64,000 nucleotides of DNA from Marchantia polymorpha subsp. ruderalis (taxonomy: Eukaryota > Streptophyta > Marchantiopsida > Marchantiales > Marchantiaceae). The stretch lies in NCBI GenBank assembly GCA_037833965.1, contig AP031353.1, forward strand, positions 16,308,501-16,372,500, read 5' to 3'. The translations under genes were made by a program, and so were the position numbers. Under the pieces are notes generated by a model, which did no database searches, had not been told where the DNA came from, and worked only from the letters and a program-made list of their open reading frames with translations. How positions within the stretch are numbered: position 1 is the stretch's first letter; every line of letters begins with the position of its first letter. This document shows positions 6,081 to 61,100 of this stretch, one piece after another.

Positions 6081-7900
6081 TCAATTCAGAATGCCTACCA
6101 GTGTACCCACGGGCTCAGATGCCGAAGAAATCACAGCCACTAGAAGCGAAGCGAGGACAAGGACAAAGGTCCCACACTGAGCTCGTTCAAGAGCAACGAT
6201 GGATTGCAATACTCTCTTACGAAAGACCGGGTCTTCAGGCTTCCATGTCCCTCCTCCCCTCACAACTCATGCATCTGCGAGCATCATCTAATTTTTCCTC
6301 CTTGATGCCACTGCCAAACTGGAAATCTGGCAGCATCCTCCTGCATCCTGCAACTACTCTCTTTACAAGTGTCAGAGAAAAGAACCGCCAAGAGCATCCC
6401 GACGACAACCGGTAATTCCGCACATGGGCAATATTGACAGCAGTCCACGTCCGTCAACTTTGTGATTTTTTTACCACCTTTCGACAGAAAGGCCAGTGCA
6501 GAGCGAGAGGGTGACTGGGGTAAGCAGTCACCTCCTGTGGATGGCGGTAACGAAGAGCAGGAAGCTTCGCTCTCAACACTCGACCGTGTTGTCATGGATG
6601 CTGCAGGTGTGGCAGTGATGGATGCTGGAGGATTTGACCGAGTCGACTGTGGAAAGTCTGTCGGAGTCTTCCTCCTTACAAGCTTCGCCATATTCAGCCG
6701 CTTTCTTACACTCGCATGCAAATATAGATCTGCATCTTTGGAATGGATGTACCGAAAGCAGCGATGACGCAGATCAGTCACGAACTGGATCTCTAGATGT
6801 AGCTCGGTCCATTGACCACGAAAAGATATTAGAGATCACATGAAATGCAGGGGTGTGACTATCTGCCGGATGACGTCAGTGGAATTCTCCAGGTTTTGTC
6901 CCCCTTTCGTCCCGTCAGACAGGTAGATCCCAGAAATCCACCCACGACCGAGCGACAAGTTCACAACATCGCTGTCTCACGGCTAAATAAGAATAAGAAT
7001 CGAACCATGACGGATGGAACGTTGTATGGATACACAGTCAGACGAAGAAGAGCAGCTGTAAGATAGAACATGATCGTTTGTGTTTGTGTTTACATCTTCG
7101 TTCACAAGTTTGGGACGTCCCAACTGATGGATGTGGTAAAGTCCACCAGGTCGTCACGTGTCAGTAATTATTGCAGTCTATGCTTCCCTTTTCAGTCTCG
7201 CTACAGCTTCTGTCCGTTGCCTCAGCACGGCTTACAAGCTTGGCCTCTAGCATTTCATTGACTCCGTTCTGAAGCGTGACAACGCAGTCTACGGGCCTCG
7301 CATGTACACTGAGGGCCCGACCCTCAATCCTCATGGGAAGATTTCGGTTGACTGTTGAGAACCACGAACTGCTCTCAGCCTTGCGTCCCGCTTGCCTGGC
7401 GTTTGAAATGTGCATGCTGTTCATTATGCTTCCTCGTCTTAACTGCGGTGGTTGCCCAGCTGTGTCTACTTCACTGCCCAGTCTCATACTCAGACATCGG
7501 GTATTTCCAGTTGAAGATTGTGCCCTTATGATCCAGTAGATTCTCAACATTTTCTCACTGTGATTATTAATGCCACCTCTGGAGATGGTCCTGGGGATGG
7601 TAAACTGTCCCTGGGGACATGCTTGCCATCGAGCCTTCTCGTTGCCTGTCGTATCCCGGCCAGTTCCGGAGAAAACAGTAGAACCGACACATGCGGCTCT
7701 GTGTTTCACATTGGGATTGAGCTCAATTCTCGTCGAGCGCGGACACCACATTTGTCCAAGAGCTGTTCAGCAGAATCATGTAGCCAACCATCGTAGACGG
7801 CCTTCTCTTCTCTTCTTCCACCTCTGAAGAACGCAGTCTGTGTTTTTGGGAAGATTAGAACCATGCGGCTCCCTGGATTTCTTTCTCTTTCCGGTGACAC
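6081..7900 (-). other. Coding-like island, possible split gene on the minus strand
   Basis: This block is clearly less AT-rich than its flanks and carries minus-strand open frames at 7161-7751 (196 codons), 6284-6781 (165 codons) and 6081-6263. The 6284-6781 frame has a Ser/Pro/Thr-rich stretch followed by a short hydrophobic run (LPVVVGMLLAVLF). The 6081-6263 frame has another (GTFVLVLASLLVAVISS), so a membrane protein with one or two segments near its C-terminus is conceivable. I could not join the pieces with convincing splice sites, and plus-strand frames overlap everywhere. I do not recognise a family. The stretch could equally be a decayed gene or the promoter region of the downstream ARM-repeat gene. 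Confidence 0.22.
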
Positions 7901-8091: not shown

Positions 8092-11000
8092 ATGGCGGAA
8101 GCTGTGTTTATTATGGGCCTAGGCCTCGTCGGAAAAGCAGTGAAAAATCTAGTCCTAACTTTGCTGGATGTAAAAGAAACCAAGCAGCACAGCAAGATCA
8201 TTTGCAAGGAGATCGACTTGTTTGTGAAAACGTTGAACGAGAACATCAAGCTCCTGAAAGTGAACCTGCCCGCCAGCGTGAGCAGACGAGCATTAGGTGC
8301 GTTGTCGTTGTCATTCTGTTTTCGGTTCCGTCTCTTGAGATCCAATGGCGGTCCCAGTCATCGGTCATGTTTTGGAGTCATGGCCACGCCTGCGACCCCG
8401 ACGAACATGGGACTGGTTAAGGAAATGGGAACATGAATAGGCAACATTTTCTTACAGAGTTCAGTTGCCAATCGAGAGGCGATCGAGTGCCTGGGCTTGA
8501 ACTCGTCGTGGCGCATCATACGAAGGAAGGGGCGGCGTGACGAAGCCTTGGATCAGGAATTGTCGGACAAGATGGCAGATTTGAGCTTTGAACATATCTC
8601 CTCCAATTGCATCGGCAAATTTATCGCAGAATCAAGTTTTCCCGCCCGATCAGCCACACCAAACTTCTGGCTGTCAAGCTGCAGAGACATGAAAGCATAG
8701 ATTCTAATATCAAGTTCCAGTGTTTCAGGAAAAAAATGTTTTGTTTGCACTGACCTCTGCTTTTGTGCTGCTAACAGAGTCTCTAGTGACGAAGCTGGGA
8801 GACGCGACTGCGTTTGTGCAGTCCCGCCAACGTCAGGGCTTTTTCAAAACCCTTTGGAATGCACACGAGACTAAGCAGGAGTTGGAGATGCTACGTCGGA
8901 ATCTCGACTCTTCATTTCAAATGGCTCTTTTCATCACCACTCTGGATGTGAGGTTCAGTCACACTCCTGCAACATATTACTTCAGTTTCTTCATTGTTGC
9001 TATGGATCTTACCAAATTTCGCAGTCACGCTAGCTTGATATGTGTTATATACCTCGTGAAGCAGCATGGTGATAAGTAGGATTTGTTCTTCCACGCTCAA
9101 CTTCGATCAAGTAGGCAGATAACATCCGAAAGACACTCAGCTTCATAAACCCCAGAGTTAAAAAAAACTCTAAGGTTAATCCCTGCTTTTTAGCGCTGAA
9201 GATCAAAGTCGATACTCCAGTTGCACTAATCGCCAACAAAGTTCCATTACCTGAGTCTTTTGGGATCGTAAATCTGCTGGTATTATAAAAAGAAAGTGGA
9301 TGTTATGGCTTTTATACAAGTCTCTTGGTTTGGTATTCATCGCGTTTAAATGCATTGAAGGCTGTAGATTTTGACTATCAGCATCTGAAGAAGCCGTCAG
9401 GAGAGTACTGATGGACTAGAGTAGAAAGTATGTTCCAAATTTGGCTCCTCATTCCTGAATCTGCAATTTGACATGTCATACTAGGTTGCTGTGGACGGGC
9501 ATAGTAAAATGGAAGACTTTCAGATGAAGATGCTGGAAATTCACTCAACTCATGCATCGAGTTCGGAAACTGCAAGGAGTGAGATCCGAGATATACTCGT
9601 ACCCCTTCTAGAAGAAGTACCGAGAAAAGAAAAGTTGCAGTCAGTAATCTCTGTAGTTCAAAATATGAATCAAACTGCGGACACGGAGAAGTTCTTCGCC
9701 GATGTAAGTGTCGAACTGGTCATCACCAACACATTTACATTAAAGCTCTTCAAGCTTCAAGCTCTGCAACGCGTCTAGTTCTGAGAATATGTCCATGCCC
9801 TGCAGGTTCTAGCCAACCTCGATCCAGTTGCACCTATGGAGGATGATGAGCAGTCTACTGTTACAAATGCAGATGATGACGAAGAGTTCAACGATCCCAT
9901 CACTTGTGAGCTGATGTGCGACCCAGTTAAAGGAACAGATGGCCGCACTTACGATCGCTGGACCATCATTGACAACGATTTAACTAGGAGTCCCTTTGAT
10001 CAGAGCAAGAGCAAGCCTTTCCGAATAGAGTGTGATGACATCAATGTCCGTGGACGTCTATTCAAAAAGTATCCCGAGGCAGAAGCTTTGTTTCGTGAAC
10101 TTCGTCACGATTACAGGAAAGAGGCTATGAAGCTGGCAAGAGGAGGCCACGATGCCGAGGCTCTGGTGATGTTAGAGAACGTTCTCAAGTGGGCCGATGA
10201 CGATTCTGAGTGTTTTGAACTCCGAGATTTGATCTTGGAAAGGAAATCCCAGCAGGACTTTGCAACTGGAGTTAACATCCAGGAGCGGGAGACCAGTCGC
10301 TCACTCCCTTTTACGCAAAGCAGCCCAACTCTACCTTCAAGATCGATCACCCTTCCGAGAGATCACGAGTTTCACATTGAAGAACATATTCACAGAGTAA
10401 GGTCATTTGATACTACAAGCTCGAGAGATATTCCACCTAGAAGCAAACCAAAACAAGGTATGCACAACTGCTACTCGCGACCCAAAACTTTGGCAAAATG
10501 TTTTTATCTTTTGTTGTCAATGCCAGGGTGTAGCCCAACTTGCGTGAGCTCTAGAAGCATTGTTCCTTCAACAACCAAACATGGATAGCAAGAATGATGA
10601 GAGGAGACAATGCAAAACGAAGGACTTAGTTCAGGGCACTTTCACCTTTTTCTTGTTCTGTACAGTTGTCAAGAACAAGTTCAAGTGAAATGCGTAGTAC
10701 GTAGAAATTATAAGAAAGGACTATTTGATACAATTTTGTCAGTTTCCCCTTAGCCAGCTTTGCGATAGAATATATAGACATCAAGGTACTTGCAAGATGC
10801 AGTGGATGGAATTGAACCTGCTGTGCTTAAAACAAATTGTGCTCATTCTGCAGAGGAGAAATCAAGGGCCATGATAGCTATACACGAGTTGAAGAGCATC
10901 GTATGCCTCTTGTCCAAAGAAATAGCCGATAGTCCCTTGAGAGAAGCAGCAAGGAACTTTGCAAATTTGGCCCGGGATTCCGAGAACAAGGTTAATATGG

Positions 11001-12676
11001 CTATGTATCCAGGAGCACTGGAGAGTTTGGTAGGATTGTTGACCTTGGACGTACCCGAGAGTGTTCTATACGAGGTCACCAGAGGATTCGCGAACCTCTC
11101 CTCTGCCAGGGAGAATCAGGAGAAGATGGCGAAAGTTCCGCAGTGTTTGGAGAGGCTAGTACAGTTGATGCACAAGGAAGTACCGAGGAGTATCCAAAGC
11201 GAAGCTGCCAGAGCTTTCGCCAACTTGGCCTTGGCGAAAGAGAACAGGTTGAAGATGGGAGCGGTTCCAGGGATCTTGGAAAGGTTGGTAGATCTTTTTT
11301 CTAAAGATGTAGGTGAGAGTGTTCAGAGGCAAGCTACTCGAGCCTTTGCCAATCTTGCGAGTGCGGAGGAAAATATTCTGAAATTGGCAGCAGTTCCGAA
11401 AGCTCTAGAAAAGGTCGTGGGTTTGCTGTGTAAAGAGGTGCCCGTCACGGTTCAGGTTGAAGCTGCGAAAGCTGTTGCGAACATAGCCCATGCCGAAGAA
11501 TGTGGAGCTAAGCTCGCATACTTCCCAGGAGTTCTGGAGAGACTGGTTGGCCTGATGTCTAGGAAAGTCCACGAGGCCGTCCGATTCGAGGCTACAAGAG
11601 CCTTCGCCAATCTCTCTCACTTCAGGAGGAACAAACCGAAGCTGATCACTTACCCTCAAGCAGTTGATAGGGTCGTGAGCTTGTTATCTTCGGACGTGGA
11701 GGAGAATATTCAGGCACAAGCCGCGAGAGCCTTTGCCAATCTAGCTGCGGTAAGAGAAAACCTGGTCGAAATGGCAGCACAGCCAGGAGTTCTGAAAAGG
11801 CTAGTCGATTTGCTAGCCAGAGGAACAGCCGAGCATGTGCAAATTCAGGCTGCGAGAGCTATAGCATATCTGTCTTCTGACGATGAGAATCAGATCACAA
11901 TCGCAGCGTTTCCAGGAGCACTTGAAAGATTGGTGGGCCTGTTGTCGAAAGACGTACCCTTGAGTGTGCTGAAACAAGCAGCCCTGGCTTTCGCCAACCT
12001 CGCTTGTGCACAGGCGAACAAAGGTGCCATGGCCTCGTTTCCAGGGGCTCTGAAAAAGCTCGTGGGTCTGCTCGGTAAGGGGACACCTTCCAGTATTCAA
12101 TTCCAGGCTGCAGCAGCCTTCGCCGACTTGGCATGGGCAGAGGAGAACAGAGTGCGAATGGCAACTTTCCCTGGGGCTATCGAAAGGCTCGTGGGTTTAC
12201 TCTCCGATGATGTGGACGAGAATGTCCAGGCACAAGCAGCAAGAGCGCTGGCAAATCTGTCCGTAGTGAAGCAGAATGCCGTGAGGATGGCCACATACGA
12301 AGAAATCGTCGCCAGACTGGTAGCGTTCTTGTCGACAGATGTGTGCGAAGAAGTTCAGACTCAAGTCGCGACAGCATTTGCGAACCTCGCTGCCGTGGAT
12401 GAGAACAAGTGGCATATGGCAGAGTACCCAGGGTCTATAGGAAGACTGGTAGACCTGATGTCCATTGGAGTACCTGAAAGAGTTCAAAGACCAGCTACTC
12501 GAGCTTTCGCCAGTCTGTCCAGCTTTCGGGAGAACAAGGTGATGATGGCATCATATCCCGGAGCTCTCGACAGGCTGGTGGATCTTCTTCATGAAGACGT
12601 GGGCGAAGGCGTTCAGATGTACGCCCGGAAAGCTCTTTCCAGACTCAGCGGGAACGAAGTTCGACTGAGATGGTGA
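8092..12676 (+). CDS. 4-helix-bundle (MAEPL-like) / U-box / ARM-repeat protein, spliced, exon 2 possibly frame-broken
   Basis: Proposed exons: 8092-8277, 8458 to about 8727 (uncertain), 8780-8947, 9485-9703, 9806-10457 and 10797-12676. Exons 1 and 3-6 have good GT/AG borders and compatible phases. Exon 1 begins MAEAVFIMGLGLVGKAV, an amphipathic start resembling the CNL/RPW8-type helix of non-flowering plants. Exon 3 (LGDATAFVQSRQRQGFF, then KQELEMLRRNLDSSF) resembles the end of an RPW8/MLKL-like four-helix bundle. Exon 5 carries a U-box (FNDPITCELMCDPVKGTDGR, then TYDRWTIID), the E2-binding fold of E3 ubiquitin ligases. Exon 6 encodes the whole ARM array. Within exon 2, coding-like sequence changes frame between about 8591 and 8700 and no splice pair repairs it, so this allele may be a pseudogene or hide an unusual intron. 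Role by family: membrane or immune signalling, or ubiquitin ligation; the substrate is unknown. Confidence 0.8.
10900..12665 (+). repeat. 129-bp tandem coding repeat (14 ARM units)
   Basis: The last exon of the U-box/ARM gene is a head-to-tail array of about 14 units of 43 residues. Each unit runs roughly as L-V-x-L-L-(8 residues)-x-V-Q-x-Q-A-A-R-A-F-A-N-L-A, then E-N-K, M-A and PGALER. The units I counted are 43 residues long with no insertion, which is unusually regular for plant ARM proteins. All units lie in one intron-free exon, so expansion by unequal exchange is possible. Confidence 0.85.
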
Positions 12677-14536: not shown

Positions 14537-15629
14537 TTATGCAATCTGCTTCTTTTTTATTTTCGGTATATAATTGACTTGTAAGTCGCTTGCTTGAGCT
14601 CTTTCCCTTATAAAGTGATGTTGAAATTCTATATGCTTTGTTCTAACATGCAAAACAGGATTTGCTACTACTCTAATATATGACTGGTTGTTGCATAAAA
14701 ATAAGGTTGCTACTTTTTCACATAACCCTAACTCTGCCAATAATTGGCGTAAGAAAACAATGTCTTTTGCATACTCAAAAAGTGTACAATATTCAGCCTC
14801 AGTAGTTGACATCGTCACTAAAGACTGCAATTTGCTACTCCAATCAATTGTAGTACTTCGAAGCTTGTGAACTATTCCGGTTGTTGATCTTCAAGTATCA
14901 ACATCCTTCCTATAATCAGAGTAAGTAAAGATATGATACATCAAACCTCCATGTTGCTTGAAGTGAAGATCCCAATTTATCTTTTAGCTTCAAATACTGC
15001 AACATTGACTGTGCAAGAGCCCAATGAATCTCTTGAAAATGATGCATATATCGACATACACTATTTACTGCAAAGCTAATATCAAGTTTTGAGATAGTTG
15101 TGACAAAGAGAAATGATCCAATTATTGACCTATATAATGTAGCATCAACGGTTGGTGTTGTAGTGTGATGCTGTAAGTAGAATCCAGGAGCCATTAGATT
15201 ACAAACTGAGTTACAAGTCTCTAAATTTAATTTTTCTAGAAAATTTTGTATAATTTTTTGTTGATGCAAAGAGATTTTAGTCTTTGTTTTCTCTAATTTT
15301 GCCCCTAAGTAGAGCTTTGCATTATCCAGAATTGTCATATCAAATTCGCTTATAAGAATACTTTTGATCTTGTTGAGTTCATTATGATTATCTCCAACAA
15401 GCAACAAATCATCAACATAGAGTAGCACAATTCTATACTTGCTATCAATTATTGAGTAGTACATATTACTATCAGCTGTGCTCTTCTTGATTCCATGTTG
15501 TGTTAAAAAGGTATAGATTCTCTCATATGAAGCCTTTGGTGCTTGACGAAGGCCAGAGATAACTTTCAAAATTTTACTCATTTTTTTTTCTTTAAATACT
15601 TCAAAGCCATCTGGCACATACATGTACAC
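14537..15629 (-). pseudogene. copia reverse transcriptase and RNase H remnant
   Basis: The frame at 14916-15629 encodes a Ty1/copia reverse transcriptase (RVT_2 type). It has VISGLRQAPKASYERIYTFL and the catalytic LLYVDDLLLVGD, followed by the YLGAKLE and YRSIIGSFLF segments. The separate frame at 14537-14830 carries the copia RNase H signature MSTTEAEYCTLFEYAKDIVF and the RTKHIEFQHHFIRE tail. The two parts are out of frame and separated by stops, so no active polyprotein can be made. Copia RT copies the element RNA into DNA within virus-like particles. Confidence 0.93.
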
Positions 15630-16338
15630 ATTTTCATCGAACTTGTCATTTATGAAGGTTGTTTTAAAATCAAGCTTGGAAATCTTTCACTTTTATTTGC
15701 AGCTAAGAAAAGTATGGTTAGAACTGTGATTCACTTTACTACCAGAAAAAAGTTATTGTAAAAATAGACATACTTTAACTGTTTGTTTTCTCTAGCAACT
15801 ACCCTAGCTGTAAGCCTCAAAACTTCTCATGATGCTTCAACTTTGTATTTATAAACCCACTTTGCAGTAATTGGAGTGACTCCAAGAGACACTATGTCCT
15901 TATCTCCCATGTCAGGTTCTTATAAATTGATTCAACCTCTTATTCCATTGCTGATTTTCAACCTGCATGTGCCACTTCCTGTTGAAATGTGATTGGATCT
16001 TCATGTGATGACAACATTCATAAGTAGTCTTTAAATCTAGAGTTTGGAGCCATTTCTCTCATCGGGTTACTCTTGGTACGTACATGACTTCTCTATTGTC
16101 GTTCATAAACATGTGAAGTTGGACTAGATTCAACTTCATGGTTTGTTGCTTCGGACGGTGTATTCTCTTCATCAACAAACTTCTGATCATTGCTGTTTGA
16201 ATTCTGAACCTCTTGCACGTTTATATGTGAAAGTGATGTTAAACTTGAGCTTGGTATGATTTCCTCAATATTAATTTGTTCATCAGATAAACTAAACCTT
16301 GCTATCACTTCATCAACTTTCAACACAACTCATTATCA

Positions 16339-38040: not shown

Positions 38041-38955
38041 GACGAGACTATCCGAGACCGGGGAGTATTCTCAGACAATCCAAGCCCTGAGAATGTTTTC
38101 AGACATGTGAGTATTCCGATACAAGACCTGAGAGTGTTTAGAGACCTGAGTGTTTTGAAACGATCCGAGACCTAGGAGTGAGAGTGTTCTAAGAGACCTG
38201 AGAGTCTTTAGAGACCTTAGTGTTCTAAAACGATCCGAGACATGAGAGTGAAAGTGTTCCAAAAAACCTGAGAGTGTTTAGAGTCTTGAGTTTTTTGAAA
38301 CGATCTGAGAGTGAGAGTGTTCTAAGAGTATTGAGAGTGTTTAGAGACCTGAGTGTTCTGAAACAATCCGAGACCTGAGAGTGAGAGCAGTCTGAGAGAC
38401 CTGAGAATGTGTTGAGAGTGTTTAGAGATCTGAGTGTTTGAAGAAGATCCGAGACTTGAGAGTGAGAGTGTTTAGAGAGACTTGAAAGTGTCTTGAAGGT
38501 GTTTAGAGACCTGATTGTTCTGAGAAGATCCGAGATCTAAAAGTGATAGTGTTTTGAGACCTAAGAGTGTTATAATCCGAGACCTGAGAGTGTTCTTATC
38601 CTAAACTTGAGAGTATTCTAAGACCTGAGAGTGTTCTGATCCTGGACCTGAGAGTGTGATGAGACCTTAGACCTTAGAGTATTCTAATCCAAGATCTAAG
38701 ACATGAGTGTGTTCTAAGACGTGAGAGTATTCTCATCCAAGACCTGAAACCTAAGAGTGTTCTGATCCGAAATTGGAGAGTGTTTTGATCTGAAACCTGG
38801 GGATGTTTTGAGACCTGAGAGTATTTTGATCCAAAACTTGAGACTTGAGAGTATTCTGAGACGATCCGAGACATGAGAGTGAGAGTGTTCCGAGACCTGA
38901 GAGTGTTCTGATACGAGAGTGTTTTGAGACAATTCGAGATCTGAGAGTGTTTCAT
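38041..38955. repeat. Degenerate minisatellite built on GACCTGAGAGTGTTCT
   Basis: About 0.9 kb made almost entirely of variants of GACCTGAGAGTGTTCT and GATCCGAGACCTGAGAGTGA, with blocks in higher-order combinations of roughly 60-80 bp in the first half and shorter units in the second. Because units vary in length the array shifts frame; minus-strand open frames here (38674-38974) are by-products of the repeat and not genes. Confidence 0.9.
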
Positions 38956-39500
38956 ATATGTGTTGGTATGACATATGCTCAGCTTTTGTTTTCTATATGG
39001 ATCAATGTTTTCATGAAATTAAGACAGTAACATCACATTTCTTTAAAGTGGGATCTATAATATAATAAAAATAATACTCTAAAAGAAAGAAAATTCTTGT
39101 TTTTCTAATATTCCTTTCAATTTTTTAAAAACTCATTTATATATTATCTTTTTTTATTTAAATCTCAAAGAACAAATTAAATTTCAAAAATGCGTTTTTA
39201 TCATTATACATTTCACTTTTGAGCTTGGTCACTATTCGCTCTTGGTCCCAAATACTTTCGCCCAAATACATGTAATGAAAAATCAAATTTTAACTTCTTT
39301 TTTTTCTTGCTTGTTCCTGTTGCAGGGAAAATACTTGATGCAAATTTCAACAAGCCACAATAAGCGAAAAGAATACTACTCAAGCAATTGAACTATTGCG
39401 AAATTGACTTCCGCCATTCATATTTCATTTGTTTGATTACAGTGTAAGACTCATTGAGGTAACAATGAAAACTCCTGCAAAGCGTAACAAAGCCAAGGAT
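38956..39500. other. Spacer between minisatellite and Ty3 element
   Basis: AT-rich sequence without open frames. The 3' part of the Ty3 element (end of integrase, 3' LTR) should lie here but is absent. Coding similarity stops near 39500. Confidence 0.6.
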
Positions 39501-39514
39501 GCTTGACAACTAAA

Positions 39515-40942
39515 TCAATATCCCATGGCCAACCATGGTAACTTAATATCCCAGTCCCCAAGATGCCCCTTCTGTAGGCCATACTTGCGCAACGCTCTCT
39601 TCACCGTCTGTACCATCCGCTCAGCCAAACCATCCGCCTCTGGATGATCTCGGGAAGTAGTCCGGTGATCAATCAGCGTCTTGTCACACAAGACCTGAAA
39701 CTCTGTCCCCTGATCGGTCAACACCTCAGCTGATGCACCAAAGTGACTAAGCACCCTGTCAAGGAAAGCATTTGCTACTCCCTCACTCGCCTTGTCAGGT
39801 AATGCCACCAACTCAATCCACTTGGAGAAATGCTCCACCATCACCAACACATACCGATGATGTCGTGTAGTCAAAGGTAGTGGTCCAGCAAAGTCCAAAC
39901 TCCAACGGTAACCCAATCCCATGATAGGTAAGGGATGTAACTCTGGTGTCGGAGCATTGAACGATGCCCTCACTCGATCACAAACCATGCAACGTGATAC
40001 CAACTGCTGCACCTACGTATGCATACCACGCCACCAATACTGACCTAGGAGTAAGCTGTACGTACGCTTCACTCCAAAATGTCCCAACTCCTCATGAGCA
40101 TGCCTCACAATGCGTGCTCTCTGAGTTGGATGCGGTACCACCCGTACACTACCGTCCTCCCACACTCGGAGAACATGTACTCCCTCCAATCGGTATCTCT
40201 TCGCCCTCTGGAGAACACGATCTCGCTCCTTGGCACCCACTGTGCCTGGCACCATACTGGTCCGTAGGAACTCCAACACCAACGCATCATCGTGAACATC
40301 ACGCTGGTCCACACCACCATCCTCAACCTCAGGATCCGAAGACTGACTATGTACTCTCTGACTAGAGTAAGATGTCAAGTGGTCCTCACTGCTAGAGGCT
40401 CCATAAAACCAACACATGAAGGCCGATGCATGCCAACCGGGCACCATCTCCTCATCAACCTCACCATGCCACCTAGCTCCAGTGTCATCCTCCTGGCTAG
40501 TGCATGGGTTCCGACTCAAACCGTCGGCATCCAGGTTCGCAACTCCAGGCCTATGCACCACCTGAAAGTCGTACTCATGTAGGATGAGAGCCCACCGTGC
40601 AAGCTTCCCTGTGAGCTTGTCAGACTCCATCAACCACTTGAGCGGTTGATGATCGGTAACAAGGGTAAACTGCGTACCAAACAAGTAACACCTGAAGTGT
40701 GCCACAGCCCACACCGCTGCCAAACACTCTCCCTCGTACGAACTATACCGCGACTCTGCTGCATTGTTCGAACGACTAGCGTACGCAATCACAAACTCCT
40801 TGCCCTCATCATCACACTGCGTCAACACCGCTCCAAGTCCCAACATACTCCAATCAGTGTGCAACTGGTATGGTCGACCTCTGATAGGTCTCCTCAAGAT
40901 GGGAGCGGCCACCAACCTGGCCTTGAGCTCAACAAAAGCTCT
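39515..40942 (-). pseudogene. Ty3 RNase H and integrase (truncated, TAG and TGA stops)
   Basis: RNase H: LHTDWSMLGLGAVLTQCDD, then SSYEGECLAAVWAVAHFR and VTDHQPLKWLM, ending ANLDADGLSRNP. A variable linker leads to the integrase zinc finger (HEELGHFGVKRTYS, then CMVCDRV). The core follows, with WSLDFAGPLP, VLTDQGTEF and EADGLAERMVQTVKRAL giving the D, D and E catalytic positions. A TAG at 40013-40015 lies between the paired His and Cys of the zinc finger. Translation ends at TGA 39515-39517 after LPWLAMGY, where related integrases continue. The last part of the integrase, any chromodomain and the 3' LTR are absent. Integrase would insert the element cDNA into host DNA. Confidence 0.93.
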
Positions 40943-41983
40943 CTACTGCTCATCTCCCCATTGCCACTCCTGATCCGACTTCAGCAACTGGTTCAAAGGC
41001 TTCGCTATAGCACTAAATCCCTTCACATATCTCCGATAATAGTTCGCCAAACCCATGAATGCACGAACTCTACTCACATCCGCTGGACGAGGAATGCGTG
41101 CAATAGCCTCCACCTTTGCCTGCTGAACTCCCAAACCACCTGGGTAGATCACATGACCCAAGTACTCCACCTTCTCCTGGAAGAACCTACACTTCTCATG
41201 ATGTAACCGCAGACCATGAGCCCTCAACCGCTCAAGCACAATCTGCAAATGTATCTGGTGTTGCTCCACAATGTCGCTAAACACCAAGATATCATCAATG
41301 TAACATCTGACGAAATCTAGCCCCGCTAGAATCCTGTCCATCACTCTTTGGAACTCGGCATGTGCATTCTTCAACCCAAAGGGTAAGAATCGCCACTGAT
41401 ACAAACAATCCTTGCCGTGAGAGTTGACACCCCAAAACGCTATCTTGGCCTTGTCCTCCTCCCGAATCGGCAACTGATGGTATCCCGCCCGAAGATCCAA
41501 AGTACTAAAAATCTTCGCATGTCCCACCACATCGAAGATCTCCTCAGGTGTAGGCATGGCATACTTATCGGCCTTCGTCTGCCGATTGATAGGACGGTAG
41601 TCCCCACACATACGCCTATCCGTGTAGTTGCCATGTACATCCTTCTTCGCTGGCATAACAGTGGCTGAAGCATACTCACCATGCGACAACTCCACTAACC
41701 CAGCCTCCAATAACTCCAACGTCCGACTCTTAATCAAGTTCCTTTCCATATCACTATATCGATAGGGACGACGGAAGATTGGCGTATCACTAGCCAACTC
41801 TATCCGTATGCCGGGTCCAATCAAAGTACCCAACTCCTTCATACTGAAGGCAAAACAACTCCTATAATCACATAGGAATTGTATCAACCGTCGCCTCTCT
41901 CCTCCGATGATCTGAAAACCAATCGATGGCTCCCACTCCTCCTCCATGTACCCACAAGAGGGAGGCGATACTGTCACTGGTTG
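40943..41983 (-). pseudogene. Ty3 reverse transcriptase (intact domain, stop-bounded)
   Basis: About 340 residues of uninterrupted Ty3/gypsy reverse transcriptase: RRMCGDYRPINRQT, IFSTLDLRAGYHQLPIREED, QWRFLPFGLKNAHAEFQRVM, the catalytic CYIDDILVFSD (YIDD codons at 41291-41302) and VRAFMGLANYYRRYVKGF. A TAG at 41984-41986 precedes it and another at 40943-40945 separates it from RNase H. FGLKNAHAEFQ has His where Pro is usual. All catalytic Asp residues are present, so the domain itself is undamaged and only the stops prevent a polyprotein. Confidence 0.96.
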
Positions 41984-41986
41984 CTA

Positions 41987-43219
41987 TGACACCTCCTCCA
42001 AAGGAAGGTTCTCTGTACCCTCCTTCGTAGCAACCTCCCCTTGACCAACATCTCCAACTGCATGGGCGTCTACTCTCGCAAGTCCTCTCGTCACGTCCCA
42101 TGAACTCCAAGGATGATGAATATCTCGCAAGTCGCCCCCAGCCATTGCCACTAACGTCCCGGTAGGCAATGAGCTAATAAGTGGTGTAACAACCATCAAA
42201 TCTGTGCGCAAACGGCGTTGCTCGGCCAAACCCAAGCTCACAATCCACGTCAAGCAGTTCAGGTCCATAGCCTAATCCAAAACCTGACGACGCGATGCCT
42301 CTGAAACTGAAGAAGCCGCGGTCACACCAGTAAGAAACCCCATCGCACGCTCTCTCTCATCAGCGTTAGGCTCCACCAACTGATGTAGGGTACTGTCCCA
42401 CAGTAGTCCAGGTACCCCATCACGATATGCATGTGATGCCGGATAACTGACCAACGTAGGCAAAGCCATCCGAGGCTGACCTACGTGGTTCACCAATGCC
42501 ATGGGTGACCTATCCGCCACTCTCATCACCTGAGAGTATCGAGAGACATCCAAGATCCTGTCAACGGTGAGGGTAGGATCACGATGCACAGAATCATACG
42601 CATGACGCAATATCTCTCATGGTACAAGGTTGGTCCACCACAAACGTGCACGATGAGCACGTGAACCAACCCTCGCAGCATCCAACAACACTGCTGATCC
42701 AATCCATGTCCTGACCTCATGGACACTCGCCATCAACTGGGCCCGAGTGTCACCCAACAATGGTACGTTCTCTAGAATGTATGCGGGAGAACGTGTCTGC
42801 TGCTCCTGGAGATGACGTAACACTCGTAGCATCTCCCAAAACATCCGAGATCTCGGGTCATGTAATCCTGCTCCATGCCCAGCGCGTGTGTGCCCCTGAC
42901 ATGGCCATCCCGCAATCACCAAATCAATATGTCCAACTCGATCGAGGTCTGGCGCCCCCAGCAATGAAATGTCTGCAGGCAACGCCTTCTGGTATCCTCG
43001 AACAGCTGATTGCGGCAACAACAAAGGAAACCGCTGCATCAACTATGTAACATGTCGTGAAGAAACCCGACGTGCAGCCTCGTCCTTCTCCACGTACAAG
43101 TATCTACGTACAAGAATACCTGACTGCAACACTGCAGCCAAACCCGTGCTGATCCCTCCAAAAAGATCCAGCAAACAAACACCCTCTGGGGAATACTCCC
43201 ATACGATAGGTGTAGTAAC
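41987..43219 (-). pseudogene. C5 cytosine-DNA methyltransferase domain inside Ty3 pol (stop-interrupted)
   Basis: Motifs in order on the minus strand: motif I GVCLLDLFGGISTGL (about 43140-43180) with the motif II acid in YVEKDEAA; motif IV IDLVIAGWPCQGHTRAG, with the catalytic Cys codon at 42899-42901; motif VI AYILENVPLLG (Glu-Asn-Val near 42761-42772); motif VIII SRAHRARLWW. A target-recognition-like stretch follows, then DERERAMGFLTG and AMDLNCLTW as IX/X-like parts. The enzyme would transfer a methyl group from S-adenosylmethionine to carbon 5 of cytosine. At about 330 residues it has the compact size of bacterial or DNMT-catalytic-domain enzymes, without BAH, chromo or UBA domains. Stops: TAG 43043-43045, TGA 42617-42619, TAG 42272-42274. 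All catalytic motifs are otherwise intact and in one frame with protease and RT, so this is polyprotein cargo and not a neighbouring host gene. Confidence 0.9.
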
Positions 43220-44422
43220 TAATGGTGATAGGGTGCTAAGACCACATACTAGCCGACCACCTGAGACTCGCTCTGCCTCTGCTGGTAAAGAGGCATCACT
43301 CCAAGCCTTCTTCACCAACCTATCAGCCTCCTGCTGTAATGCGTGGCAAGAATCCCAAAGTGGAACATCCAAAGATGATGACACTGCCGCTGCGAGACTC
43401 ACCATCTCCTCCATCTCCTCATAGACTGGAGTATCCTCGGCTGACCTGTTCCCCTCCAACAAGTCATCAGACCATGTGAGCACTCCACTGAAACCCGCAA
43501 TAGAGGCTAAAACTGCAGGAGAAGATCCAAGAGGTCGATCTCGAGAAATGAACCTCACAGGCAGCTCACTCATACGTCCATCACCGGACTCCCAACCAAG
43601 GCGATAAGCTGCCGTCTCCGTCCAATAATCCATCCGAAATCCCATCGGATATAACACCGCTCCACCAACAAGCACATCATATGACTCTGCTGATGTAACC
43701 ACCGCTCGAACTCCAAACTGCGAGCTATCCTGAGCATGACCATGCCTCAACTGCATTGATATGCGCTCTCTGGTCATCCTGGAAGACCTGTCGCTGGTGC
43801 CACCGAGTGATGTCTGAATCTGGAACGGACAAGGCTCCAACTCGGACCTCCGAACTCCCAAACTAATGCAGGCAATCTTGCCCAACATCAAAGGCTGTGC
43901 ACCAGAATCCAGCAACACTCTGGCTGGGACATACACCTGCCCTGTAGCACTCACCAAGTGAAATACCCCGCTCCGGTTGTCCACCATACACACACCAGGG
44001 ACAACCCTCTCCCGATCAATGGCTGGTCGGGCTGGCAAGGACTCCATCCGTGCCGCTGCCGCCTGCCATGTCGACTCATCGCTCGATGGAGTTGTAGAGG
44101 ATAGCTCCTCACCAATAGTCTCGCGTATGTCGGCACTCGTAGCAATGATACTCCCACGTTCACACAACGTGGTTGCTGCACGAAAAACCTGAGCCAAGTC
44201 AATCCCAGAGTCCATCAGCTCCATAGCTGAAAATAATGGAGATCTCATCTCTGAGCTAGCCATCCGCGTCACTGCACTAGATGGTGTGTCCGTGTCCACC
44301 ACACGTGACGTAGATGTCTCAGTCCTCCCACTAAGGTCACTAGGTGGTACAGGTCTCATGGATGAAGTACTGCCCACCTCTGACAACAAAAACGACTGGG
44401 GAAGTCTGGCCGACGCCCACCC
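43220..44422 (-). pseudogene. Ty3 aspartic protease region
   Basis: Pol opens after a TGA at 44423-44425 in the -1 frame relative to gag. After a Ser/Thr-rich linker comes the retropepsin-like motif ARVLLDSGAQPLMLG (Asp-Ser-Gly codons near 43902-43910), then SYDVLVGGAVLYPMGFRMDY, the second protease signature. About 100 residues later the frame runs straight into methyltransferase motif I. The protease would cut Gag-Pol into mature parts. No initiating ATG is needed if expression is by -1 frameshifting from gag, but I see no classic slippery heptamer at the junction. Confidence 0.85.
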
Positions 44423-44430
44423 TCACCCCT

Positions 44431-46134
44431 CTAAGGATCCAACTCCCCTGTCGCACCGCGTGGCTCTAGAGCTCGAGCTGCACCTCTAGTCACTGCAACC
44501 GATGCCTCCACCTGTGCTGCACTCGCTAGATAAGGGAAATCCTCTTCCTTGTAAGAGGTGGAAGTGCTCGCCCCAGAACTCACCATAGCAGCAAGCCTTT
44601 GCTCCAACTGCTCAATACGAGCAGCCATCGCGCTCTCTGTGGCCGAAGTAGCACTCGCTACAAGACGTCCAACTACACCGGCACCTCTACCAGCACGGCC
44701 ATCTCGACCTCGAGAAGCATCACCACCACGACCTCTACCACCAGATGTCAACTCTGGATGAAGGTCAAAACACCGATCTCGAGTATGACCTGCTCGACCA
44801 CAGTGGTCACACACCACCTGTGCTGACTGGGGTCTAGCCTGTGAACTCTGACCTCCGGCCTCCTGGGGACAATCTCTCCGCCAATGATCCCCTCCACATG
44901 TCCAACATGCTGGTCCTTGCTGCTGGCCAGCAAACGACGGCACTAGTGCACGTGCCCCTGTATCTCTAGCGGCTGTCTGGTGTCGTGTCTGCACTCCGCG
45001 ACCCCCACCACTACCACCACCAAAGGGTCTAGACTGTACCGTGCTCTGCGGGACACGAGAGGTAGTGGCTACGTCTCTAGCGAATGAAGAAGTCACCACT
45101 CTCTCCTCCACTATGTTAAGCTCAATCTTCTCAGAAAGAGCAAACACATAGGCCAATGTCGGTGACGCATCGCTCAAGAGGGTAGCATCCCGAATCCTCC
45201 GCCGTAGCTCTCTGTCCAGTATCCTGTACCAATACTGGACCGCCTGTGCCTCAGTTACACCGTGAGTAACTGAGATCAACCGCCGCATACGCGTGTATGC
45301 CTCCCGAAGACTCTCACCAGTCTTCCGCTCAAACTCCTGGAGACTCCTCAACTTCTCCGTCCTCACCCCCTGATAGTTCTTCCTCAACCTCTTGAAGAAC
45401 TCAAGAATGGGGCTGAACGAAGGTACCCAAGTAGTATCTCCACTCGTGCTGGCAACGCCAACAGCACCGCTGGTGATACCTGCTCCACTAGTACCATCGG
45501 TGATGCTACCACTCGCACCTCCACTGGTACCAACACCACCCTGGGTGATCGACGTATAGTTTGGAGACCAATGACGCCTCCTTGCGTCAATCTCGACAGC
45601 ATACTCTCTCCCAAACTCATGGTAGTCATCCATGGGAGGCCCCTCCAGATGCTGAAACAACCCCTTCCATGCAAAGAAGGGTGTAAACAACGTGGGGTTA
45701 CGCAAGAACTGCATATCGCACCACGTGTCAAACTCCTGGATGAAATCATCCAACTCAATGGTGCCCACTGCACCAGAGTACCGCCGTGGGCCCTTCATGG
45801 CCCCGTACATACCGTCCATGTCCCCAGTCCACGAGTGTGGGACCCTAGATGATATCACCACCAAAGATCCGCTATCTGCCACACCCCGTGCCTCTACAAC
45901 CACTGATGCGCTAGGATGAGGTAGCCGATACCTCAACCCACTCCGCGTAAATCCTCCACGGTCCTCAACGGAACCCCCAAACTCCTCCGTGATGAATGAC
46001 TCACCAATCGGCACCACTGCCACAACTCCACCTACCCTCGTCCCTGCACTAACCTGCTCTAGCCCTACTGACTATGGGTATGGGCAACCTAACATGTCAT
46101 CACCGCAAGAAGACTCTCCTGGTCCACTGGTCAT
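44431..46134 (-). pseudogene. Ty3 gag with two CCHC zinc knuckles, early in-frame TAG
   Basis: The protein-like frame can be followed up to an ATG at 46134, beginning MTSGPGESSCGDDMLG. A TAG at 46072-46074 (codon 21) interrupts it; downstream the frame is open to TAG 44431-44433. The capsid-like region has LRSLQEFERKTGESLREAYT and LRRRIRDATLL. It is followed by a Gly/Arg-rich part and two zinc knuckles, CWTCGGDHWRRDC and CDHCGRAGHTRDRC. Gag would form the virus-like particle and bind element RNA. The C-terminus ends GATGELDP just before pol begins in the -1 frame. Confidence 0.88.
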
Positions 46135-46140
46135 CACTCC

Positions 46141-47700
46141 AGTCTCACCATGAGAGAAACAAAGATAGGCGCCGGTGATCAAATCCAGCCGCACTATCGA
46201 CAACACACTGGAGTAAAACTACTCCGGAAATCAACGTCAACCCAGACATGGGCGCGCATCAAGAAGCCAGACTGGAGAGGATCCAAACACAAGAAAAACG
46301 GCTAGCAACGACTCTCTAGCCGAAATGAAACACAGCACATAACAACACAACACACGGGACATCGCCTCGCATCGCGACCCCGAGTCGAACTCCATCGCCT
46401 CCTATCATCCTCCGCCTCTCGCGCCTGCAACGCTATCTCGCTCATCCCGTCGCAAAGATGATATCGACCCTTCCGCCTTCAACGCCTACAATGTCACCTC
46501 TTCCACTAAGTCGCCAAGGGAGTCTCCACATCGAGGTGTCCAGTACTGCGCCTCACAACTCCACCTCATAACTCCACCTCCCACTGTCACTAGGGACAAA
46601 GAACATAAAGAAAGCCTATATACCTAACTGTTTCCCAGAGGAAAAGTAATAACGATAAAAACTTTTCTTTTTTTTCACAACTGAAAAATCATAATAAATG
46701 AGACCGAGTGCAAATCCTCAATCTCTCCAAAAAAATACTTTTTTTTTCTCTCTTTTCTTTTCTTTTTCCCTTTTTTTTTCTCCCTTTCACAAATCAAAAG
46801 AAATAATAAGAGTAGTTGAAAGGTAAACCACAAATGGCAGGGCAAAAGAGTTTGCGCTGAATCTGACCGTTACAACATATTCTTGGTCTCTACTTAGACT
46901 AAACGCCCCAATAATATAAGCAAAATAAGCTTCAAGTGACTGATATACTACAGATATCCCCAATCAACCAGATGTATATGATGCAAGATGGAGCAAAACA
47001 TGACCTTCTATTCTACGCTCAAATCTTCACCTTGCCAAAAGAACCTATACCCAGAGTTTATTTTGAGCCGATAATTCGGTAGGTAGAATTCTGCGCTGGC
47101 ACTTGGTCCTGTACCGCCCCGTCCAAGTCTACTGCCCCCTTCCATTATAATCTCTAGTACACGTCTTGCAAATCCTCATCCACCGCTTGACCTGTCCCTT
47201 GGATGAATAAATTTGCACCAAAGGAAGGTGCCCAATCCGCTAAGAGGTGATGACAAAAATTAAAGCAAGAAACCCTTTGGACCAATAAGTGTTCGCGAGA
47301 GAGTAGTCAACACCTATTCCAATTGACTGCCGCCTTCAGTCCACGCTCAAAAGTAGGAAGTCCATCGACAACTGCGCGGCTTTGTTTCATTCCAGATCAT
47401 CACCGGTTACAATATACTGATTCTACGCATCCGAATGGCGCAGTTGGCAGTTGAGGAGTCCATGATTCACGTGTGAGCCGACACTAGGGGGGTCAAATAT
47501 TGGGATCGCTTCTCACTGCGAGAAGCTTGGCCATCGTATGTCATTCATACACATTAAGATGTAGTGTGAAGACCGAAGGAGTTCACAAACCCCTGCCGCG
47601 GAGGCAAAGATGACGTTTTCGACGAAGACCCGGAAGAAGGCAGGCTCGAAGGCGCAAGTAACAAACTAAAACAGCACAAAGACTGCCCCGAACGAACTTC
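46141..47700. other. Presumed 5' LTR/leader of the Ty3 element and spacer
   Basis: No gene-like frame. The first few hundred bases have the base composition of the element; a pyrimidine-rich tract (runs of T with C) covers about 46660-46790. The 5' LTR should be in this interval, but with the 3' LTR missing I cannot fix its ends. Confidence 0.45.
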
Positions 47701-50020
47701 TTCGAGTTTCAAAAACCCAAGAGAGCTCGATATCGGTTGGACCTGTCACGCGAGGCCCTGCTCGGCTCGACCCCGCACCAGCTACCAAGGATATGCGAGG
47801 GCTTCGAAACACCTAAAGCTCGGATAATTTTTGAATCAAAGCTCATCCATTCCGTGCCTGCAAGGTCCTGTGCAGCGGTGCTTCGATTAGCCCCCGGCAG
47901 CGCCTCAATCAAGAGGCATACGTACGCAGCAAGAGCTCCGGAGCCGAGCTCGACCTCCTCTCCCTCCTCTCTTCTTCTTCTTCTGGATCGAAACTGTCGG
48001 TCGCACTCTCCGCTCATTCGCGGGAGAGGACTGCAGCTAGATAGGCCGAACGCCCGAAAGCCGCGTTTGAATTTAAGCTGATTCGGCCATCGTCTTCTCT
48101 TTCGGTGAACTGTCACAGCTTAAAAGGCAATCGTACTTCGGTCGAGCGAAGTGATGACGAAGGGACCGTGTACTCATGGACTACAAGGCGCACATACATT
48201 TCCTTCAGCCAGCAAGCACTTCATGCCATCGAGTTCGATTCCACTCGTCTTCGAATTTCTTCCAGCTAGCTAGTCAAGCACAAATTCACACCCCGGTCCT
48301 TGCATCTGTTGCACATGAAGCGTCGGCAGCGGTCAGACGGAATCACATGTCTGATCGAAGTGTATCGTCGTGCCGCGCTCTGTCTGCTCTCACGTCCAAA
48401 TCCTTCCACATTTTCTCAGCACCGAATTCGCCATGTACACACACCGTGGACGCTCTCCGGCACCACACTTGTCGTCAAAACAAGACAGTCAGTTCTTCGA
48501 GTAAAAATGTCGAAACACAAATACACAAAGAGTCGAGCCAAACTCACTACTCGTAGGTAGACTAAAAGTCGAAGCTAAGGGGAAAAACCCCGACGCGTAA
48601 GGCTCAACTCGAAGAACTGACAGTTCTTCGAGTTCGCCACGAATATAAACCTGTAAAGTCGACCTAGCCTACGCTCCGCGTCTCAACGTTAGCCGACTCC
48701 CAACGTCACCCGACTCACACTCGAATCCAACGTGTCTGAACTCAAATCGACACCAACGTCGATCTGCAACTGCACTAACGTGCATACACATGACACTGCA
48801 GTTGCAAAAGATGTTCTTTCTATATCAGGTTTGCAGTGGCAGTTGAATGTATTTTCAATTGCGGATGCGATGTGATTGGTATATGAAGACATTCTATTGC
48901 TCCTGCAACTTTGAGTGCTCTAATGTTTGGAACAAGTGTTTTGAAATAATTTACAATTAATAAAGCGTACAATTTGTTTTTGTCATGAACAATTTTGCAT
49001 TTTGTGATATTTTGCAATTTCTTTCAATTGATGCATTTACTTATTCTACCCATAAAAAAAATTAGATTATTCATGTTAGCTTTTGGCTAAAAGATATTCC
49101 TTGAAAATCTAAGTGACTTGAAGTAATATAGTGGCATATAATTAAGAGTATCCATATTGATGATTAGAATATTGACTAATATGATTGGAAAGAAAAGATA
49201 AGGAGAACACTGTGATGACTTTGCTAGTATTCAAAGCACATTTTGTTGATATATAGCCACTACGTCACACTTTGACTCAACATTTATCTTCAGACCAAAT
49301 TATTTTCCAGATGAAATTTTGTGTACAAAACCATGGAGATAACGGAGCATACTTGATATTGTGGACTTTGCTCTGGTTATATCGCTATGTGATATAGCCG
49401 TTGACATGATATAGCGCCCACACACAGTCGAATCTTCATTTTGGACTCACTCGCTATTGGCTTTGCCAGATATATACAATGTTTATGAAGAATGAAAAAT
49501 AAATCAACATAAATATTGAATTATAATATATCAATAAATTATAAAATTTAAATTGAATAATCTTGAAAATTTTATTGAAAAAAATTCAAATCCATTGGGA
49601 TCTCATAATAATTTAAGTATGAAATATAATTTAGAAAAATAAAACAACTCAAATAAAATAGATTCATAATTCATAACTTGATTCCACTAAATTAGAGAAG
49701 TAATAAAAAATGAATTACTCTACTTTCTTTCAGATTGATGATAATCCGGAAATTGTAATAAGTCTGTATATTTTGAAATTTTGATTTCTAGCACTTGAGA
49801 GCCTTTAGATTGCATAGAATATATAAACCTCATTTGTTTCATTTTACTCAAATCAACATCAATATAACATTTTGACCATATGGATAGTCCAAATATATTA
49901 TTGGTAGAGGTTTGAAGAAAAATGAATGAAATTTTGAAAAATATATAAGAAAATAAAAACGAATAATGTTATTTTTTAACAAAAAATAAAAAATATTATT
50001 TAGAAATCTCAAAAAAATAT
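47701..50020. other. GC-richer patch (47.7-48.7 kb) then AT-rich spacer
   Basis: At 47709-48116 open frames exist on both strands (135 and 114 codons) and at 48176-48560 on the plus strand, with no recognisable motif; overlap on opposite strands argues for composition, not coding. A perfect palindrome lies at 48606-48634. From 48.9 to 50.0 kb the DNA is AT-rich without features. Confidence 0.45.
48606..48634. repeat. Perfect palindrome, 14-bp arms, 1-base spacer
   Basis: AACTCGAAGAACTG, then A, then its exact reverse complement. CAGTTCTTCGAGT recurs as a single arm about 130 bp upstream (near 48490), so the hairpin may derive from a duplicated, inverted segment. Confidence 0.92.
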
Positions 50021-58166: not shown

Positions 58167-61100
58167 ATGGCCGTTTCTCGAGCTTGGGCTCACAGTTTTG
58201 CCGGGCTCCGTAAGCTGCATTCTCTCAGCTCTGTTTCCGTTTCTCGCACCGGCTCCCACATCCCGACTTTTGAGCCCTTGGGTGAGTGCAAGCCAGCTCG
58301 ATTTCAACTTGCGCAATTGATTTCTTTCGCTTGGTGTGATTCAGTTTGGCGTCTGCTTTCGTCTCCTCTCCACTTCTGCTCATTTGTTCGATGAATTCCG
58401 TTTGTTGATTTACTACTGCTTGTGTACCCCGATCTGCTTAGATAACTGGAATTGCCGTCTTCGGTCCATCAGTGTCGTAGAAATGTGTGCTCGAGCTGAG
58501 GTAGTACGCAAGAGTTTTTTGAAACGAGTGTGCTCCTTTTCCGTCATGGAGATGGGCTTGTCTCCTTAATCTGCTTTCATCTGCTAATGATGCGGCTAAA
58601 TGTGCATTCGGTTGAAGCGGGACTATGAGCTAGCTATGTCCCTTCTATGGATTTTGATTTTCTAGACTGAATGGTGAAAGGCACTGGTATGATGCCCTGC
58701 ATTGCACCCAAAATCAAAAAGGAGGAAATTTACAATTGATATCTGCGTTAAAACTGTATATTATTATCGTAAAGGGCGTCCAGTTATACAGCATAAGACT
58801 TAAGAGGAAATGTGGAACATGCCCTGGCTGGTGAGTTAGTTTTCAGTTGATGTCCGATGAACGCTCCTTCTGGCTGCGTCTCTAACGTTTTGGGGCAATT
58901 CGGGACGACATGGCAGTGCAACAGAGCTTTAGACCTGCGAGATTGTCGAGATCCATCGCCCATGCTGCAGCGTTAGAAGAATCCTCTGACTTGAACAAGA
59001 AGAAAGGAGAGAGGCTCTCGAGGGCAGAGAGATATGTCCTTGTCGAAAGTTTTGTATTGAGGTTTGTTCCTCTCATTTTTTCTCTTTGATTGAAGACATT
59101 CGAGTTGTAAATTTTACTTTAGATGATAAGATTCTCCCAGCGAAGTTCGTTGCTGAGAGTCATGGTTTGTCAACGCAGGCACAAAGCTTCTCATGAAGGA
59201 AAGTGGCCGAGCCTCACTGCTATTCTGAAGGAGACGGGTGGGAGTCGTGTCATTGTCAAAGACATTCTGGATGAGCTGACCTCCAAATCGGGCAGTGGCG
59301 TAGCAGCATCTTTAAGTACCCAGGAGATCGACGATTCTTCAGTAGAACTAGAAACAGCTCCGGAAGTCAGAGGCGTTCTCAAGTATGAAACAGTCGGTTC
59401 ATTGGGTCGTACGGAAGTGGAAGCCGTTAGTACTAGTGACTTGAGCAGCGATGAAGAGGAACTGGAATCACCTGTTGGCTACCTTCCTGACGATTCTTCT
59501 CCGAACAGTGACGCAAAATCTAACCGCAGCTCGGGTGAAGTTGCAAGTGACGCGGGCCTCTGGAGAAAGTTGCGCAACCTCGGTAGCTCTCAACAAGATG
59601 CTTCTCTGGAAGCCAAGGAGGAAAGCCCCCAACCGGCGGCCAGGTCACCAACTCCAGTGACCTTTGATAGTTATGATACCGACTTGGAAGAAGATGGGGA
59701 CATAGATGAATTGGCAGGTGATGATTTTGAAGAATCAGATGATGCTCCAGGCCCCGTCGTTGTTCCACATCACCATCATTCCAGACCTGCACCTTCTTCA
59801 ACGCCTCCTGCAGTGGAGAGTCATGGACTCTTCATCAGATTTTTACCTTTATCTGCCACTGAGACAGATCTTAGGGCTGCTTTCCAAGATTGCGGAGAGA
59901 TCGTGAGAGCGCAGGCCATGCAGCCTAAGGGTTCTGGTCTAAGATTCACTTACGGGTTTGTAGACTTCTCGGTACGTAATCCACATCCAAGCCTTCTGTT
60001 AAAGTAGGTCTGTTGGGCATGGTGTTTCGTTTTGTCGTATTCCTTGGGCTGTTTTGTATAGATGGAATCCGATCTAGCCTACAGGTGGTCCTTTTTTTTC
60101 CATGACTGAACCTAGTCTGTCCTTTCTTGAAGGCTAAGAAAAGGATCAGTTCTGTTCTTCTAAGTTACAGTGAGGTCTGAGCATTGTTACATGGATTCAA
60201 CGTTCGTTTTGTTTTTCAACAATTTTTTTTTTGGGTTGCTTTGTGGTGTCTAGCTGACTTTTAGCAAATTCTGCCAATGACACCATGCCTAGCTCTTTCT
60301 GTGCTGTTACGTGGAATATTATCAACTCATATGAATTGCGGATATGTATACGCTGGATGCCAGGACATAAGTGCATAGGTAAATTTCAATAGAAGCTTCG
60401 ATTTGTTCCATTTTAATTAACATGTCATCTTCCCGCAGACACCGGAAGGGTTGAGCAAAGCGTTGAGGAAAGAGAAGGTTTTTATCAAAGGTTCTACTGT
60501 CATTACAGAACCTTGCTCCGGTCCTAGGAGATCCGAAGGCAGGCCGACGAGTGTACGGAATCCGGTGGTAGATCCATCAAGGAGAATTTTCACTAACAGT
60601 AGACCTCTCAATGGGGCTAGGACTCCTATACTAACTCGTCTGAGGCGTACCGATTCCCCAACTGGCAGTGATGTTGCTGTGCGCACTCCATCAGTGCCAG
60701 AAAGGAATTCTCGTTTTGTCGCCGTAGAAGGTTTGCCATATCCAATGCCTATTAGTGCTATCGAGAAGATGATGTCAGCTCACGGTGAGATTGCCCGATC
60801 AGAGCTCGGACGCGAAGAAGGTGGAACGTATTCCGCTCAAGTGGAATTTAAGGTACATTAACCGCAAATAAATATTTTTTTATCTGCAAGTAAACCTCGA
60901 AACCTACCATCTCGATGGGTTAGTAGGCGAACCTTGAATACATTCTGTGGATTCCGTGTCTTAGTTCCTCTCACCACTGAGTATATCGGTCACTTCGTTC
61001 TTATAGAAGTACAGTAATGAGTGTCTGTCCAAAAATCTTGCATCGCTGATGTGGTCCAACCTGTTCGTTACGCAGACGGAGGAGGCTCGAGACAGCGCTT

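Follow-up and report, generated by a model that had tools for sequence, protein, structure and literature searches.

The window analysed here is a 64,000-nucleotide stretch of Marchantia polymorpha subsp. ruderalis DNA (GenBank assembly GCA_037833965.1, contig AP031353.1, positions 16,308,501 to 16,372,500 of the forward strand). On its minus strand, at about 48760-39486, we found a Ty3/gypsy element in which a cytosine-DNA methyltransferase (DNMT) is encoded between the protease (PR) and the reverse transcriptase (RT). The copy belongs to a family of Ty3/gypsy type that is large and has recently been active in this liverwort. In the reading that we consider probable, it is a decayed member of a family whose first open reading frame (ORF1) encodes a polyprotein of Gag, protease and DNMT3-type methyltransferase up to a leaky UAG-CARYYA stop, and readthrough would add RT, RNase H (RH) and an integrase (IN) tipped with a PHD finger.

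The minus-strand order in the window was gag, protease, C5-methyltransferase, RT, RNase H and partial integrase, in one frame with premature stops both inside gag-PR-DNMT and inside RT-IN. A remnant of the 5' repeat A1 and the adjoining primer-binding site was located at 48490..48760 (over 291 columns it matches repeat A of the full copy L013 at 84.5%; A is the 5' repeat in full copies). It was followed by the leader (5' untranslated region, 46072..48489), which was mostly diverged from other copies upstream of about 46458. The Gag part of ORF1 (44431..46071, a stop-bounded frame) contained two zinc knuckles, CWTCGGDHWRRDC and CDHCGRAGHTRDRC, recognised by eye in the translation; its match to Retrotrans_gag was weak (E 0.0092, below its cut-off). 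The aspartic protease, with approximate limits of 43500..43990, was recognised by eye from the motif VLLDSGAQPLMLG, and the piece gave no Pfam match at 0.01; the protease motif VLLDSGAQPLMLGK was present in all 20 copies fetched from the genome. The DNMT3-type domain (42250..43219), decayed here by premature stops, and the C-terminal tail of ORF1 (41987..42249) share one frame, which closes at the TAG of TAG CAA CCA (41978..41986), a predicted leaky stop (UAG-CARYYA) between ORF1 and ORF2. RT (40943..41983; PF00078, E 2.8e-31), RNase H with the zinc-binding start of the integrase (40013..40942; PF17917, E 7e-36; PF17921, E 1.4e-09) and the integrase core (39486..40012; PF00665, E 2.2e-11), cut off at about 39486, were then observed. 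This is the PR-RT-RNaseH-IN order of Ty3/gypsy elements (Metaviridae) with an rve integrase, the protease being assigned by motif only; the DNMT, between PR and RT, is an addition to it. The domain matches and their order agree with an initial annotation of this DNA, which had described a Ty3/gypsy element of which a DNMT is an integral part.

The window copy matched L013 at 97.3% from 46458 to 39486, and no match to L013 was found between 48490 and 46458. Because the match comprised this segment and the repeat remnant at 48760-48490 only, we regard the window copy as decayed and 3'-truncated. Its match to the full copies stops within the integrase, at 39486-39490, so that the end of the integrase, the PHD finger and the 3' (B-A-B) repeats are missing from the window copy.

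In the methyltransferase of the window copy, motif I (about 43178), the PCQ of motif IV (42904-42896), the ENV of motif VI (42772-42764), a motif VIII-like RAHRAR (about 42661) and an MGF...AMDLN end (about 42250) were placed by eye. PF00145 covered residues 34-132 of a stop-bounded piece of 141 residues (42617-43042) with an E value of 1.5e-10. These motifs and this match bear out the earlier placing of the DNMT in one frame with the protease and RT, and between them; of the span 41987..43219 that had been given to it, 42250..43219 is the domain, but 42249-41987 is the C-terminal tail. Among C5-methyltransferases with solved structures, the family enzyme was nearest to DNMT3 both by sequence and by fold, and the family profile and structure model gave DNMT3A/B as the closest.

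When the genome (9 contigs, 241 Mb) was searched with the 141-residue piece, at least 150 matches were obtained (the best 150 of 437 candidates were scored, and all matched). Since the piece has this many matches, the DNMT of the window copy is not there by chance; a single copy in the genome, which the initial annotation had named as the sign of such a landing, was not what we found, and the trait does extend to a land plant, the family being present in Marchantia. An open frame of 1348-1365 amino acids without an internal stop was observed in 26 of the 150 scored rows. Twenty of these 26 copies, chosen for their open ORF1, were fetched; the long ORF1 was present in all of them, and an ORF2 of 1042-1045 amino acids in 15. 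The best protein matches to the family were Marchantia polymorpha gene models, such as Mp_8g17980 (95% over the 481-residue query). The number of contigs, nine, equals that of the Marchantia chromosomes. Furthermore, repeats A1 and A2 were identical in L013, L021 and L024, and therefore some of the insertions are recent. A genome scan with PF00145 gave at least 123 scored places among 290 candidates, many of which coincided with places of the 141-residue search. At least two PF00145 places look like host DRM genes, the host exons L061 and L062 being DRM-like by eye.

Subsequently, the end of ORF1 was compared among the copies. ORF1 (gag-PR-DNMT-tail) closed with TAG in 21 of 21 rows (the 20 fetched copies and the window copy), with ORF2 running on in the same frame, and CARYYA directly followed the TAG in 20 of these rows, in both subfamilies. 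When the genome was searched for the flanks with the three stop positions left free, 209 sites were found (115 + 94); with TAG fixed, the number was 199 (107 + 92), i.e. TAG stood at 199 of the 209. The reversed pattern gave no sites in the genome. These counts are complete and refer to pattern matches as such, without site-by-site inspection; because the patterns fix CAACYA, it is the stop that they probe, not the hexanucleotide. We conclude that the TAG at 41986-41984 belongs to the family and is no product of decay. Several metagenome proteins also finish after the DNMT (for example P0018, P0021, P0024, P0025, P0030, P0032 and P0033). CARYYA is a known stimulator of readthrough, described for Tobacco mosaic virus, and the hexanucleotide 3' of the viral UAG is the same as that of the family (PMC4132726). 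Unlike the viral stop, that of the family divides Gag-PR-DNMT from RT-RNaseH-IN-PHD. The sequence context is that of a leaky stop, and readthrough is predicted for the family. The initial annotation had assigned the enzyme to a pol polyprotein; the frame shared with RT stands, but the enzyme lies on the Gag side of the conserved stop and there is no uninterrupted Pol frame. It should therefore be produced alongside Gag, with RT in smaller amounts.

ORF2 of L019 ended in a PHD finger (PF00628, E 9.4e-11), and the best PDB matches of the family finger included those of CHD4, KMT2D, PHF12, DPF and KDM5. The domain scan found a PHD finger in 117 of the best 120 of 358 relatives, a count that is biased upwards because the query region included the finger. 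Haematococcus lacustris is named among these 120, as is a model with the label Chrzof1, which we take to be Chromochloris. No chromodomain match was found in ORF2 of L019 at E 0.1, and neither of its ORFs gave a match to the phage integrase (tyrosine recombinase) at E 0.1; the rve integrase was present. Chromoviruses, Ty3/gypsy elements with a chromodomain at the integrase C-terminus (PMC3605345), likewise bear a module of chromatin-reader type at this position. The family differs from them in having a PHD finger instead of the chromodomain, and also the DNMT and split repeats.

The order of full copies was A1 - leader - ORF1 - ORF2 - B1 - A2 - B2. Split direct repeats of the type A...B-A-B, as in DIRS elements, were observed in the 11 of the 20 copies with a readable A pair; no A pair was found at the ends of L009, L010, L015, L016, L017, L019, L022, L025 and L028 within the fetched stretches, and these nine were left out of the end counts. 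The 11 readable copies were 10.5-12.0 kb in length with outer ends TGTC...GACA, and 10 of them were flanked by 4-bp target duplications. The B1/A2 junction was GACA-GC-TGTC in all 11, and a G-rich tract preceded B1 in 10, L023 having a local duplication there. In 9 of 10 copies tested (L023 was omitted), part of A recurred just after A1 as an exact reverse complement of 11-12 nt. The miss was L011, in which an indel had misplaced the A1 end; CTCGAAGAACC does follow its A1. For L011, L014 and L023, indels or a misplaced end inflate the ungapped mismatch counts. Elements of the Tf1/sushi type are self-priming, with a site of 11-12 nt after the 5' repeat complementary to part of that repeat. The family resembles them in this site, which is probably a self-priming signal.

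An element with the same layout, L063, was found on contig CADCWO010000201.1, filed under a Synechococcales (cyanobacterial) bin. Its gag-PR-DNMT frame (1162 amino acids, open at the 5' end) finished after the DNMT and was joined through TAG CAA TCA to an in-frame RT-RH-IN-PHD frame of 1047 amino acids. In its best segment the DNMT shared 48% identity with the query, the B-A junction was the same GACA-GC-TGTC as in the Marchantia copies, and a similar G-rich tract lay upstream of it. The contig is probably of eukaryotic origin and contaminates a bacterial genome record. After the B-GC-A junction of L063, at 7055-7215, we noted by eye an inverted repeat (GTAGATTAG...CTAATCTAC), unlike in sequence but placed where the Marchantia repeat A has its self-priming hairpin.

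Related DNMTs occurred in proteins named from Marchantia, Riccia sorocarpa, Calypogeia fissa, Sphagnum species, Klebsormidium nitens and Cymbomonas and in many metagenome proteins. Such a distribution, from liverworts and Sphagnum to Klebsormidium and metagenomes, suggests that the partnership is old and stable rather than the result of a lucky capture. The Klebsormidium protein P0042 (PR-DNMT-RT-RH-IN) was 43% identical over 51% of the query; it differs from the family in having no stop between DNMT and RT, and its partial model gave no PHD match. Inheritance from streptophyte algae and a new gain had both been left open by the initial annotation, and P0042 leads us to favour an old streptophyte origin. 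Two domain orders were observed among the relatives, DNMT before RT and RT-RH-DNMT-IN-PHD; 37 of the best 120 of 358 relatives were IN-PHD proteins that gave no PR match and had the DNMT directly before the integrase. That the Pol lineage captured a DNMT several times and not once is a real possibility, although not the one we favour. The two positions of the enzyme would agree with it, as would P0176, whose places in the DNMT and RT trees conflict; the RT of this protein groups with the family clade and its methyltransferase is divergent (GPPCVG), perhaps a replacement. Against it, trees of 21 rows split alike by position, the RT-RH-DNMT-IN-PHD order forming one clade in both (DNMT, 100/100; RT, 97/96). 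The same split is also expected from one old insertion that was later moved, and well-supported inner branches were few (4/18 and 7/18 in the DNMT and RT trees, respectively). Three of the 21 rows pair proteins solely because their contigs are of equal size, and c7322 is doubtful. In the main, the trees fit long co-descent of DNMT and RT, whether after one capture or two.

Among published elements, the family comes closest to KnitGypsy-Dnmt3 of Klebsormidium nitens, with gypsy domains, DIRS-like repeats (Fig. 4 legend) and a DNMT3-type enzyme (de Mendoza 2018, PMC5890265). P0042 may be a copy of KnitGypsy-Dnmt3. KnitGypsy-Dnmt3 and the family are alike in their gypsy-type domains, DNMT3-type enzyme in the polyprotein and DIRS-like repeats; its enzyme was published as part of one Pol ORF, whereas a single TAG stands between DNMT and RT in the family, in 21 of 21 rows. 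The same article reports several Symbiodinium kinds of DNMT3-bearing elements. One of them, SymbioDIRS-Dnmt3, resembles the family in its DNMT3 enzyme, which lies in one ORF with RT, and in its A-coding-B-A-B repeats (PMC5890265). It differs in having a tyrosine recombinase and not a DDE integrase, and belongs to another retrotransposon class. A 2025 paper mentions retrotransposon DNMT3 in streptophytes and dinoflagellates, citing the 2018 work (PMC12344493). ParB-methyltransferase proteins of algal DNA transposons are likewise transposon-encoded DNA methyltransferases; they differ in belonging to DNA transposons, in being encoded by a separate gene and in their predicted N4-cytosine or N6-adenine methylation (PMC12477816). 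In the literature listings that were searched, no DNMT-bearing element was reported for liverworts or mosses, mention in supplements being possible, and nothing on such elements was found in the available part of PMC6453930.

Other features of the window were noted by eye or as repeats. Just past the truncated end of the element, 38124-38930 holds degenerate tandem repeats whose periods are near 18, 70, 81 and 133 bases. A minus-strand frame at 14916-15686 resembles a Ty1/copia reverse transcriptase (YVDDLLLVG). On the plus strand, adjacent frames at 9785-12676 resemble a U-box and then armadillo-like repeats, perhaps a host gene, and a frame at 59123-60007 has an end like an RNA-recognition motif.

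Several observations weigh against the reading proposed for the family. Its motif IV is PCQ and not the PCN of DNMT3; the ratio of nonsynonymous to synonymous substitution rates (dN/dS) of the DNMT within subfamilies was 0.27 and 0.25, a weaker constraint, and the copies compared were chosen for open frames and are non-independent. The Klebsormidium enzyme gave no methylation in yeast, a result called inconclusive by its authors (PMC5890265). The hexanucleotide was CAACAA in L014, and in L003 among the eight first loci; L021 had no target duplication; a Met that is usable for internal initiation lies 13 residues into ORF2; and in P0038 and P0042 the DNMT runs into RT with no stop between.

The methyltransferase of the family is nevertheless under purifying selection. 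Its dN/dS was 0.16 against 0.076 for RT, i.e. the DNMT is less constrained, and the C-terminal tail, at 0.49 between subfamilies, had the highest value among ORF1 parts (20 copies for ORF1 and 16 of the 20 for ORF2, L009 being omitted for PHD). The domain might have no catalytic role on DNA, serving as a structural or nucleic-acid-binding module of Gag, or might methylate RNA. The PCQ, the constraint weaker than that of RT and the lack of activity of the Klebsormidium enzyme in yeast, itself called inconclusive, point that way; however, motifs I, IV, VI and VIII retained their core residues in 20 of 20 copies, and motif IV was PCQ in all of these and in 28 of the 29 rows in an alignment of the relatives (ECQ in the more distant P0038 and P0041), so that we consider such a role rather unlikely. 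Action mainly in trans, on the host genome or host silencing and not on the element's own cDNA, is in our view quite unlikely: coding on the Gag side and the many copies could supply a dose that alters the host methylome, an effect discussed for Symbiodinium (de Mendoza 2018, PMC5890265), but a place within the Gag polyprotein would favour confinement to particles. That the UAG merely divides two independently translated ORFs is improbable, since, for all that the Met in ORF2 and the stop-free P0038 and P0042 would allow it, the frame is the same, the stop is single, and the CARYYA context recurs in both subfamilies and in L063 with its 48% identical DNMT.

On the reading of a leaky stop, ORF1 would be translated as one polyprotein of Gag, protease and DNMT3-type methyltransferase ending at UAG-CARYYA, and readthrough would add RT, RNase H and the PHD-tipped integrase. 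Made at the dose of Gag, the methyltransferase may be packaged in every particle and may carry out de novo methylation of the new cDNA or of the target site. The cDNA would probably be self-primed from the A repeat, and reverse transcription from the primer site to the G-rich tract would yield ends of the B-A type. The integrase would then probably cut the joined form at the palindromic GACA-GC-TGTC B/A junction with loss of GC, and the PHD finger may steer integration by reading the histone H3 tail. We suggest, tentatively and with considerable doubt, that these elements form a green-lineage gypsy clade predating land plants, with a DNMT writer at Gag dose and a PHD reader, self-methylated cDNA and integration through the cut B-GC-A site.

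Taken together, the firmest new points are the UAG-CARYYA stop with the enzyme on its Gag side, the PHD finger of the integrase, the pairing of split repeats and 4-bp duplications with a DDE integrase, and the occurrence in bryophytes, with a high copy number in this genome. From the leaky-stop layout one would expect the enzyme to be part of the particle, and from the PHD finger that integration is guided by chromatin. If the element does methylate its own cDNA in the particle, new copies would land already marked, and integration from the form cut at the B-GC-A site would give DIRS-like ends with a DDE integrase. Why a transposon should encode an enzyme of the type with which plants silence transposons is a puzzle, and the family places this question in the model plant Marchantia.
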